DNA from: Halobium salinum
GTDB taxonomy: Archaea > Halobacteriota > Halobacteria > Halobacteriales > Haloferacaceae
Length of the DNA stretch: 64,000 bases
NCBI RefSeq assembly: GCF_026586625.1
Contig: NZ_JAODIW010000006.1
Location: 1,525,061 to 1,589,060, forward strand
Direction: 5' to 3'
Shown: positions 4,073 through 7,691 of the stretch, one piece after another
Position numbering within the stretch: position 1 is the first letter of the stretch
Layout of the letters: every line of letters starts with the position of its first letter
The notes under the pieces: generated by a model
Told to the model about the DNA's origin: nothing
The model's input: only the letters and a program-made list of their open reading frames with translations
The model's database searches: none
Program-made: the position numbers and the translations under genes

Positions 4073-6145
4073 TCAGTCCTCGAGCTCGGCTTTCGCCACC
4101 TCCGCACCGGCGAACTCGAGCACCTCGCGGGCGCCCTCGGTCGAGTACCCCTGCTCTTCGAGCGCCGTCACCCACGCGTTGCGCTCGTCGTCGTCGAGTT
4201 CGTTCGCCGACACCAGCGCCGAGAAGTTGATGTTGTGCTTCTTGTCCTCCCAGAGCTTGCGTTCGAGGGCGCGGCGCAGGCGGTCGTTGTCCTGCGGGTT
4301 GAACGTCGTCCCCTCGCGGGCGCGTCGGGAGACCCAGTTCGAGACCTCCTGGCGGAAGTCGTCCTTGCGGTCGCTCGGGATGTCGAGTTTCTCCTCGACG
4401 GAGCGCAGGAACTTCTCGTCCGGCTCCTGTTCGCGGCCCGTGAGTTCGTCCTCGACGGTGGCGTCGTCGATGTAGGCCATCACGTGGTCCATGTACTTCT
4501 CGCCCTGGCGCTGTATCTCGTCCAGGTCGTAGGCCAGCGCGTGGCGCACGTCCTCGATGGCGCGCTCCTTGTACTCCTCGCGGACGAGTTCGAGGTAGCG
4601 GTGGTAGCGCTCCAGGTTCTCCTCGGGGATGGAGCCGTGGTTCTCCAAGTTCTCCTCGAAGTGGTTGAAGATGGTGAGCGGGCTCAGGTAGTTCCGCCCC
4701 CGGTGGGTGGAGTCCATGATGGCCTCGGCGATCTCGTCGCCGATGAACCGCGCGGAGACGCCGGACATCCCCTCCGCGATGTCGGCTTTCGCCTCGCCCT
4801 CCTCGCGGAGCTTCTTCACGTCGACGTCGTCGCCGTCGTCGATTTCGCCGTTGTAGGCCTTGGCCTTCTGGACGAGCGTGACGCGCTCGCCGTCGGGCTC
4901 CTCGATGCGGGTGAGGACGCCGAACAACCCCGCCATCTCCAGGGCGTGGGGCTCGATGTGCATGTTCGGCACGTCCGCGTTGCGCAGCATCTTCCGGTAG
5001 ATGTCGGCCTCGTGGTCGTACTCGAGGACGTACGGGAAGTCGATGCGCTTGGTGCGGTCGTTGAACGCCTCCATCTTCTCGTCGCCCTTCTTGTCCCGGT
5101 ACTCGGGCATGTTCGTCCGGCCGACGATGACCTGGTCGATGTCGATACGCGGGTTGTTCTTCGGCTTGATGGTCTGTTCCTGCGTCGCGTGCAGGAAGTC
5201 GTAGAGGAACTCCCGCTGCAGTTTGAGGAGCTCCTCGCCCGAGAACAGCCCCCGATTGGCGTTACAGAACGCCCCCGCGTAGTCGAACGCGCGGGGGTCG
5301 GACTCGCCGTAGATGGCGAGCTTCGAGTAGTTGACGTCGCCCGTGAGTTCGGTCTCGTCCTGGTTCTTCTTGTCCTTCGGTTCGAACGTCTCGACGCACT
5401 GGCGCTTGTTCTCGCTCGCGACCAGCCGGATTATCTCGATGTGGTTCTCCAGCACCGCCTGGAGGTCGTCGTCGTACTCGGTGAGCAGGCGGTCCATGTA
5501 GAACTCGCTGGCGGGGTCCAGCGACTGCTCGTTGCGGATGGTGTACGGCGCGTCGAACGCCTCGTTGATGGAGTCGATGACGTGGTCGCGCTGGGCCTGC
5601 GGGAGCAGGACGAGCGGGTCCTGGTTCATCGGCGACCGGACCGTGTCGTCGGCGGGGTCCTGGTCGCGGATGACGTCGCCGAGGTTGGTCCACCGGAAGG
5701 TGTACATCCGGCCCTCGTCGCGCATCGTGTAGTCCTCGAAGTACCGCCGGACCATCCAGTCGAAGTGGGACTTCCCCGACCCCACCGGACCGAGGAGGAG
5801 TTTGATGCGTTTCTCGGGGCCGAGTCCGCGGGCACCGGACTTCACCTTGTTGACGAACTCGTGGATGGACTCGTGGACCTCGCGGCCGTAGAAGACGTTC
5901 TCCCCGTCGTGGAGCGGGTCCTCCGAGGCCATCTGGTACTCGACGATACCCGCTTCCTCGTCGTACTCCGTACCGTAGTGGTCGAACATGTCGGCAACGC
6001 GCTGGTGGGCGTTGCGGGCGATTCGCGGGTCCTCGTACACCTGTTCGAGGTACCAGTCGAAGGACTTGGCCTCCCGCAGGTCCGAGGGAACCGACTCTTT
6101 GTAGTTTCTACTGAGCTCTTCGAGGGTTTCTCTTTCACCGGTCAT
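4073..6145 (-). CDS. prkA: PrkA-type AAA+ serine protein kinase
   Basis: A 690-residue PrkA/YeaG-family protein. Visible features are FYGREV (85-90), the Walker A GPVGSGKS (119-126), a central AAA+ core with GRTNMPEYRDKK, and a long charged helical C-terminus resembling the family's kinase region. It heads the operon prkA, prkA-like, yeaH, spoVR with near-zero spacing. In bacteria PrkA/YeaG responds to nutrient and nitrogen stress. The ATG at 6145 is followed upstream after 15 nt by a 299-bp leader that is duplicated near-exactly upstream of a small membrane-peptide ORF, so its expression control may be shared. Confidence 0.93.
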   Translation of the reverse strand: MTGERETLEELSRNYKESVPSDLREAKSFDWYLEQVYEDPRIARNAHQRVADMFDHYGTEYDEEAGIVEYQMASEDPLHDGENVFYGREVHESIHEFVNKVKSGARGLGPEKRIKLLLGPVGSGKSHFDWMVRRYFEDYTMRDEGRMYTFRWTNLGDVIRDQDPADDTVRSPMNQDPLVLLPQAQRDHVIDSINEAFDAPYTIRNEQSLDPASEFYMDRLLTEYDDDLQAVLENHIEIIRLVASENKRQCVETFEPKDKKNQDETELTGDVNYSKLAIYGESDPRAFDYAGAFCNANRGLFSGEELLKLQREFLYDFLHATQEQTIKPKNNPRIDIDQVIVGRTNMPEYRDKKGDEKMEAFNDRTKRIDFPYVLEYDHEADIYRKMLRNADVPNMHIEPHALEMAGLFGVLTRIEEPDGERVTLVQKAKAYNGEIDDGDDVDVKKLREEGEAKADIAEGMSGVSARFIGDEIAEAIMDSTHRGRNYLSPLTIFNHFEENLENHGSIPEENLERYHRYLELVREEYKERAIEDVRHALAYDLDEIQRQGEKYMDHVMAYIDDATVEDELTGREQEPDEKFLRSVEEKLDIPSDRKDDFRQEVSNWVSRRAREGTTFNPQDNDRLRRALERKLWEDKKHNINFSALVSANELDDDERNAWVTALEEQGYSTEGAREVLEFAGAEVAKAELED

Positions 6146-6160
6146 TGTATCACTCGGGAA

Positions 6161-6459
6161 TCACTTCGTCGCGACCCCGGTCGTCGCGGCCGGACCGTGG
6201 CGGGCGCCGACGACCCGTCGGCGCTGGCCAAACACTGACTCGGAGCGACGGCACCGCTCACCCTACGGGCGAACGCCGCGGTCGGGTGACCGTTCCTTGC
6301 CATGTTTATTCATACCACATGCCCCGGCGTCAGCGACGGCGACACCGACGACTTCGACAGGAAGCGACGCGTTCGACGACGATACGCGGGGCGGTCGTCC
6401 GGTCCGGTCGACCGAGACTATTAATGTATTGGTGCTTGGTACCACATAACGTTTGTCCC
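6161..6459 (-). repeat. 299-bp duplicated leader, copy 1 (upstream of prkA)
   Basis: Copy 1 of a direct repeat whose second copy lies at a constant offset of 594 bp with no indels. I count about nine substitutions, roughly 97% identity. Read on the minus strand it ends 15 nt before the prkA ATG. It contains AT-rich candidate promoter elements at 6300-6312 (a GAATAAAC-like box on the minus strand) and 6416-6424 (ATTAATAG). No terminal inverted repeats are seen, so it looks like a duplicated promoter or leader, not a transposon. Confidence 0.9.
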
Positions 6460-6618
6460 AACTGCCGCCATAGTTGGTTCATACTAATAGAAAACCGCAG
6501 TACGGAACGGAGTGGAATCGTATAGGGTGTCAATCGAAGCCTACAAATATATATAGTAGCCCAAGCAGGGTTGATAACCAAAATCGGCAGTGATTGTCGC
6601 TGTCGGATGATTAGCCTA
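6460..6618. other. AT-rich spacer between duplicated leaders
   Basis: This stretch is clearly richer in A/T than its neighbours, with a run ATATATATAG near 6547-6556 and TAATAG near 6486. No convincing gene is seen; a short minus-strand frame (6330-6581) runs through it but enters the repeat and has no family character. It could contain a promoter for transcription into copy 1, or be foreign DNA brought in when the leader was duplicated. Confidence 0.5.
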
Positions 6619-6741
6619 CTATTCTGGGCCCTCCTTGTCTACACGGTGGAGCTGGTACCACAGTATGGCGATCGTAAGGGAGTGAACTACGATTGCCAGT
6701 ATTTTTACACCGATTTCGAGTCCCGTGAGTATCCCTTCCAT
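6619..6741 (-). CDS. Putative 40-residue membrane peptide
   Basis: A 40-codon ORF that I do not recognise. It has a short polar N-terminus, one hydrophobic segment of about 23 residues (GVKILAIVVHSLTIAILWY) and a charged tail ending KEGPE, so a single-pass membrane peptide is expected. Its ATG lies 13 nt downstream of the second copy of the prkA leader, nearly the same spacing as in front of prkA (15 nt). That placement is the main argument for it being a real gene. Codon use is less GC-rich than in neighbours. A chance ORF remains possible. Confidence 0.5.
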   Translation of the reverse strand: MEGILTGLEIGVKILAIVVHSLTIAILWYQLHRVDKEGPE

Positions 6742-6754
6742 GGTGGTGGATTTC

Positions 6755-7053
6755 TCACTTCGTCGCGCCCCCGGTCGTCGCGGCCGGACCGTGGCGGGCG
6801 CCGACGACCCGTCGGCGCTGGCCAAACACTGACTCGGAGCGACGGCACCGCTCACCCCACGGGCGAACGCCGCGGTCGGGTGACCGTTCCTTGCCATGTT
6901 TGTCCATACCACATGCCCCGGTGTCAGCGACGGCGACACCGACGACTTCGACAGGAAGCGACGCGTTCGACGACGATACGCGGGGCGGTCGTCCGGTCCG
7001 GTCGACCGAGACTATTAATTTGTTGGTGCTTGGTACCACATAACATTTGCCCC
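6755..7053 (-). repeat. 299-bp duplicated leader, copy 2 (upstream of the small membrane ORF)
   Basis: Second copy of the leader at 6161-6459. On the minus strand it ends 13 nt before the ATG of the 40-codon ORF. The ATTAATAG element (7010-7018) is kept, whereas the GAATAAAC-like box of copy 1 is changed to GGACAAAC here. If promoter activity is shared, the distal ATTAATAG element is therefore the better candidate. Similarity stops abruptly at both ends. Confidence 0.9.
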
Positions 7054-7268: not shown

Positions 7269-7691
7269 GTGAGCTTCGACTCCCTCCCGGACGGGTGGAC
7301 CGTCTGGACCGACGAGACCGAGGGTCGGGCGATACTCGCCTACCGGCCCGACGTGTTCGACACCGACGCGTTCCCGGCTCCGTGTATGCCGACGCTGTTC
7401 GTCAGCAACCGCTCGCGGAAGAACCGGCCCGAGGCACGCTACGTCGCCACCGACACCTGGCACGTCACCCTGTATCTGGAGCCGGAGGTCGCAGGTGAGG
7501 TCGAGGAGTACGACAGCCGCGAGGCGGCGGTCGAGGGGGCTCGCGAGTACGCCCGCCGGTTCGCCGAGGGCGAAATCGACCACCGGGCGCTGTACCAGGT
7601 GCCCCGCGACGACTACCTCGCGAAGTTGGACGAGCTACTCGGTGGAGGTCGAAGCGGGGACGGGGACGACGGGAACGGGGAAGGCGCGTAG
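7269..7691 (+). CDS. Conserved haloarchaeal protein (DUF5820-like)
   Basis: A 140-residue soluble acidic protein. The GTG at 7269 is chosen because the preceding residues from the ATG at 7188 are Arg-rich and unlike coding sequence, and because a TATA-like box sits about 25 nt upstream. The segment GRAILAYRPDVFDTDAFPAPC is the recognisable conserved block, followed by a region ending in a Gly/Asp-rich tail. It resembles a widespread uncharacterised haloarchaeal family, which I believe is DUF5820 but cannot verify. No catalytic motif is evident. The next gene starts 38 nt downstream with its own promoter. Confidence 0.75.
   Translation: MSFDSLPDGWTVWTDETEGRAILAYRPDVFDTDAFPAPCMPTLFVSNRSRKNRPEARYVATDTWHVTLYLEPEVAGEVEEYDSREAAVEGAREYARRFAEGEIDHRALYQVPRDDYLAKLDELLGGGRSGDGDDGNGEGA

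Follow-up and report, generated by a model that had tools for sequence, protein, structure and literature searches.

Why do two unrelated reading frames of Halobium salinum, the gene of the kinase PrkA and an ORF of 40 codons, carry the same leader? The question arises from a stretch of 64,000 nucleotides (the window), in which a direct repeat of 299 nt occurs at 6161-6459 (copy 1) and 6755-7053 (copy 2), with a spacing of 594 nt and 97% identity. A sequence-only reading of this DNA had described near-identical 299-bp copies with an offset of 594, about nine substitutions and no indels, and alignment confirmed this description: the copies differ by nine substitutions (leader positions 4, 9, 32, 34, 132, 150, 152, 196 and 286) and zero indels, and their identity breaks off sharply at either end. 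The positions given for the two start codons, 13-15 nt past the copies, also hold. On the minus strand, the ATG of prkA (6145) follows the end of copy 1 by 15 nt, and the ATG of the small ORF (6741) follows the end of copy 2 by 13 nt.

The locus and its repeat

Read along the minus strand, the window contains the divergent DUF5820 gene (7272-7691, plus strand; PF19137, 8e-52), leader copy 2, the ORF for the 40-amino acid peptide, an AT-rich spacer of 159 nt, leader copy 1 and prkA (4073-6145; AAA_PrkA and PrkA C-terminal domains, PF08298 8e-64 and PF06798 2e-73). Most of the haloarchaeal loci examined have a DUF5820 gene as the divergent neighbour of prkA on its upstream side. The downstream part of the operon, consisting of prkA, a second PrkA-like gene and a DUF444 gene, resembles the stress operon PrkA/YeaG - YeaH(DUF444) known from E. 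coli YeaG (PMC4664914); different from that operon is the presence of a small membrane peptide and a promoter duplication, neither of which was found described for it in the literature searched.

The similarity between the copies is far above chance (E about 1e-142). The whole genome contains these two copies only, the next-best matches being 35-40 nt long at 86% identity, and this rules out a multi-copy mobile repeat. In a sample of 1.01 Mb, made up of the window and 80 prkA-centred haloarchaeal loci, only the window repeat and the prkA promoter of Candidatus Halobonum tyrrellensis showed direct repeats that were 100 nt or longer and had both copies within 1 kb, once short-period repeats such as a 111-nt tandem were excluded. 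No comparable promoter duplication was seen away from prkA in this sample.

The leader is the predicted promoter and 5' untranslated region of prkA

prkA loci were collected from 80 named haloarchaeal genomes and from a Haloferacaceae family set, and were then aligned. Across the Haloferacaceae, the repeat aligns to the predicted core promoter (BRE/TATA) of prkA itself and to a predicted 5' UTR of approx. 270 nt. Its 5' end corresponds to a conserved core promoter with an A/G-rich BRE-like stretch, the hexamer TTATRT and, where transcription is expected to start, AGTCTCGGTC. Because the alignment places it on a promoter and UTR that are conserved in relatives, the term leader is correct, and the control region that had been proposed as the duplicated unit can be specified as the predicted prkA core promoter plus a long 5' UTR, with TATA box and UTR retained in copy 2. 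The predicted TATA boxes, both TTATGT on the minus strand and both aligned with the prkA promoters of relatives, are located at 6444-6449 in copy 1 and at 7038-7043 in copy 2, where they correspond to the conserved TTATRT. For copy 2, we infer a transcription start about 25 nt downstream of the predicted box.

The 5' UTR also contains an inverted element, GTGGTATG-N6-CATRCCAC, which is present in 45 of 156 prkA loci. Both window leaders carry it together with the TTATRT box and the start region AGTCTCGG, with a degenerate right half, CATGGCAA. In copy 1 it reads GTGGTATG-N6-CATGGCA (6298-6318, minus strand) and is conserved in relatives; a motif search of the genome located its counterpart in copy 2 (6892-6912, minus strand). 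This search returned three matches, i.e., the two leaders and one variant elsewhere, and the element was rejected as a regulon-wide motif. An Rfam search with the leader gave no match. The element could act as an RNA hairpin or as the binding site of a dimer. In the prkA UTRs it often contains a T/G mismatch, which is tolerable to RNA but not to DNA symmetry.

An insertion of 594 bp with foreign DNA

The distance between DUF5820 and prkA is 1127 bp in the window and 243-762 bp in 123 of an initial set of 129 loci, with a few longer distances in a later set; subtracting 594 bp leaves 533 bp. The arrangement of DUF5820, a single leader and prkA is standard among relatives. Upstream of copy 2, the sequence CGAAATCGGGGCAAA is similar to the native promoter flank of prkA in these relatives, which places copy 2 (6755-7053, minus strand) at the native promoter position, whereas copy 1 (6161-6459, minus strand) abuts the conserved prkA start GTGATACAATG. 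Because a native-like flank precedes copy 2 and copy 1 joins GTGATACAATG, the gained piece is a 594-bp insertion, in which a second leader accompanies 295 bp of unrelated DNA. The insertion is lineage-specific. What the sequence-only reading had called a duplication is right for the second leader copy; the foreign DNA between the copies had been missed. A plain tandem duplication was rejected, since neither flank matches the sequence that separates the copies, and copy 2 is the one preceded by the native promoter flank.

The inserted 295-bp segment (6460-6754, minus strand) is AT-rich, with 47% GC against about 65% in the leaders. It has no relatives at the DNA level, and blastn against plasmid records gave no match, leaving a plasmid origin unsupported. 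A close parallel is provided by genome G080 and its sister G083, the comparison of which reveals a 438-bp foreign segment between two copies of a 155-bp stretch in G080, the end of which coincides exactly with the TATA box of prkA. This parallel fixes the class of mechanism for the window insertion. Compared with the genus, the duplication is young, in line with the recent origin proposed earlier. The promoter duplication is probably the reason why such an insertion can be tolerated, as it leaves prkA its promoter.

A small membrane peptide with relatives at the same place

The insert contains the 40-codon ORF (6619-6741, minus strand), which is predicted to encode a single-pass membrane peptide, MEGILTGLEIGVKILAIVVHSLTIAILWYQLHRVDKEGPE, with a mean hydropathy of 2.19 over its best 17 residues. 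The peptide matches no Pfam, NCBIfam or PHROG family. Its best non-self tblastn match among 170 family genomes has an E-value of 0.036 and is a 38-codon ORF of G169, which lies on the same strand about 0.6 kb upstream of prkA. The two peptides share 13 of 28 aligned residues, a score that was reached in 0 of 2000 composition-preserving block shuffles. The occurrence of a homologue at the same place in G169 argues that the peptide is not a chance ORF. The combination that was to refute the earlier reading, a small ORF absent from all relatives beside a decaying leader copy, is therefore not what the related genomes show.

The second-best similarity was obtained with a 42-amino acid peptide of Halobonum (p 0.0045), which is probably a homologue judged by its sequence. 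When 240 short hydrophobic ORFs at the examined loci were compared with the window peptide, those of G169 and Halobonum came first and second. The similarity of the 33-amino acid peptide of G080 to the others is not significant (p 0.15), and no DNA similarity exists among the inserts. Between the window and G169, second codon positions are conserved in 21 of 28 cases and third positions in 12 of 28; the alignment is short and was chosen on the protein level, so that the pattern is supportive only, and as such it would fit a protein under constraint. A profile of the three members retrieved no further convincing member in 392 genomes, where weak matches (from E 0.002) fall mostly into long frames. 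One such match (locus L206) was inspected and found unrelated to the peptide.

No leader duplication was detected in G169, where the match to a decayed leader copy was not significant. As the peptide occurs there all the same, the shared promoter is not obligatory, and prkA can do without the peptide, which is missing from most species.

Promoter duplication recurs at prkA

Among 231 distinct prkA upstream regions (156 plus 75), five, each from a different species, have a small insert enclosed by two copies of the prkA promoter. The duplicated stretch comprises 299 bp at 97% identity in the window, 155 bp at 92% in G080, 239 bp at 82% in Candidatus Halobonum tyrrellensis and 34 nt around the TATA box at 94% in G150; in G139, which like G150 belongs to genus g21, the insert is likewise enclosed by a duplicated prkA promoter. 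Every leader copy in these carriers includes the TATA region. The promoter copies within one genome are far closer to each other than to those of other species, and the stretch that is duplicated differs each time, so that they represent independent events or copies maintained by conversion. On the PrkA tree the carriers are scattered and do not cluster. The sequence-only reading had not noticed that prkA was affected in this way in other genera, too.

These data bear on one alternative, a neutral insertion in which a foreign fragment with a chance ORF was gained along with a duplicated leader that is now decaying. The AT-rich composition, the lack of DNA relatives, the gain in one lineage and its absence from most relatives would all fit such an event, but the homologue of the peptide at the same locus in G169, the recurrence at prkA in five genomes and the 97% identity with intact TATA and UTR in both copies argue against it, and we regard it as quite improbable.

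As a separate observation, the offset between the promoter copies is near-constant (594 in the window, 593 in G080 and 610 in Halobonum) despite differing lengths of the foreign and duplicated parts. The inserts of G139 (L177) and G150 (L296), located between duplicated prkA promoters 0.4-1.1 kb upstream of prkA, are homologous to each other and strongly structured (z -3.8 in G139), with conserved terminal repeats CGCGRSTAGGMAGCG and apparently compensatory hairpins. The hydrophobic frame that they share has only 10-12 codons, and they gave no Rfam match.

Possible antisense-type anatomy in relatives and in the window

In bacterial par/Fst type I loci, convergent RNAs cross direct repeats (PMC7472228, PMC4147584). 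A comparable layout is present in two of the carriers. In G080 and Halobonum, exact 16-nt direct repeats bracket the small ORF (0 of 200 shuffles). The upstream repeat lies in the 5' UTR, the downstream repeat begins 32-35 nt past the stop codon, and an antisense TATA-like hexamer lies 23-24 nt beyond the latter. The chance of this hexamer spacing is approx. 0.003 per 5-nt slot, for a hexamer set that was picked after the fact. The same TATA spacing occurs in G139 with a 10-nt exact repeat and is absent from G150. A blind scan for this anatomy over all sequence sampled returned only the loci of G080 and Halobonum and a CRISPR array. By their sequence, these two loci look like antisense-regulated type I toxin cassettes.

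The window may be read in the same way: the peptide would be a toxin, a convergent antisense RNA would keep its mRNA silent, and the prkA promoter would be a favoured landing place, duplicated as a by-product of insertion that spares prkA. Besides the repeats and TATA-like hexamers of G080 and Halobonum, the similar arrangement of G139 and the agreement with the par/Fst layout, this reading can draw on two features of the window itself, an opposite-strand TATATATA (6548-6555, plus strand), which is a putative antisense promoter, and a strong predicted hairpin just past the stop codon (6585-6606), followed by TTTT on the minus strand and thus terminator-like. Yet direct repeats flanking the ORF were not found in the window, the predicted duplex between a putative antisense RNA and the UTR is of marginal significance, G150 lacks the TATA spacing, and a cell without an antitoxin could hardly tolerate a free toxin driven by the prkA UTR. 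Antisense-controlled toxicity is the leading rival explanation of the window, a real possibility to which we give clearly less credence than to co-expression. The small membrane factor of the sequence-only reading stands as a predicted single-pass peptide ORF with a G169 homologue. Two relatives point to something that it had not considered, an antisense-controlled, type I toxin-like cassette and not simply a membrane factor.

Comparison with known modules leads to a similar position. With par/Fst and other bacterial type I loci (PMC7472228, PMC8309996, PMC4147584), the present loci share a single-pass membrane peptide of less than 60 amino acids with a charged C-terminal tail; G080 and Halobonum also have direct repeats that enclose the ORF, as well as a promoter-like site in convergent orientation. 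In contrast to par/Fst, they are archaeal, have no detectable sequence family match and are tied to the prkA promoter by duplication, and the window member is without a direct repeat. The window peptide agrees with the type I description in being hydrophobic, shorter than 60 amino acids and equipped with one predicted membrane helix; it gave no match to a described toxin family in searches of Pfam, NCBIfam and PHROG and lacks par-type repeats, and we have therefore not filed it as a type I system. Type I-like working of the peptide is possible, mainly through its relatives.

The CreTA modules of haloarchaea (PMC8501985) are likewise small and have short upstream and downstream matches, and the window could in principle contain such a CRISPR-guided toxin RNA module, in view of the haloarchaeal setting, the codons rare in haloarchaea in the small ORF and the partial repeats upstream and downstream in relatives. 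Different from CreTA, the present loci have a membrane-peptide ORF and no CRISPR-like repeats: CRISPR-repeat similarity was found in 0 of the 5 inserts, and the haloarchaeal repeat is missing from four of the five carrier genomes. Membership in CreTA was rejected because guide flanks derived from CRISPR repeats were not found in the five inserts, and this explanation appears very improbable.

Proposed co-expression with the kinase

With no repeats in the window and a duplex of marginal significance, we prefer the explanation that a fast-evolving small membrane peptide is co-expressed with prkA from a copied prkA promoter, and judging from the sequence features we assign it a probability of roughly 0.55. 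The gene for this single-pass peptide would have arrived with the foreign piece, and the leader duplication that went with it would have left a prkA core promoter and 5' UTR in front of the peptide and of prkA alike. With its own copy of the prkA stress promoter, each gene would be transcribed separately but in step with the other. The peptide may enter the membrane and, during expression of the operon of PrkA, PrkA-like and DUF444 proteins, act as a modulator induced along with it or as a peptide that limits growth. The common regulation proposed in the sequence-only reading is to this extent partly supported. Weighing against co-expression are the peptide of G169, which has no detected leader duplication beside it, the absence of the peptide from most species, the non-significant similarity of the G080 peptide, and the inserts of G139 and G150 with their structured RNA and very short frames. 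Similar insertions at the same spot in related species suggest that the peptide is meant for induction with the kinase.

Separate transcription has its own alternative. Since the small ORF and prkA are on the same strand, copy 2 could drive a long transcript with the small ORF as the first cistron of the prkA operon, and copy 1 would then be an internal promoter or an RNA element. The hairpin and TTTT past the stop of the small ORF speak against such read-through, as does the TATA box retained by copy 1, and we consider it rather unlikely.

A broader and more tentative proposal, doubtful enough to be taken as a working idea, is that the haloarchaeal prkA promoter is a recurrent landing site for compact membrane-peptide cassettes under antisense-RNA control, archaeal systems of a type I toxin-antitoxin-like kind, each of which would duplicate the host promoter so that toxin and kinase are co-induced. 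The recurrent, independent duplication of a promoter around small membrane-peptide cassettes is a natural experiment of an unusual kind, in which prkA, a stress kinase gene with a little known role in archaea, stands out as the gene that such peptides need co-expression with. The locus is a testable candidate for an archaeal module of the membrane-peptide or antisense-RNA (type I-like) kind, of which the papers searched contained none.

Other insertions near prkA

Several further loci contain additional DNA close to prkA. A 52-codon membrane ORF is present upstream of prkA in G279 (L248), and G256 (L243) has a matching stretch without such an ORF that looks decayed. Insertions without promoter duplication were seen upstream of prkA in Haloarcula salina (L120), where the inserted gene appears by eye to encode an HTH regulator, and in G027 (L147), where it appears by eye to encode a methyltransferase. 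Finally, Natronobiforma cellulositropha (L094) carries a CRISPR array with the repeat GTTTCAGACGAACCCTTGTGGGGTTGAAGC within a few kb of prkA, at about 1.2-2.9 kb from one end of the locus.
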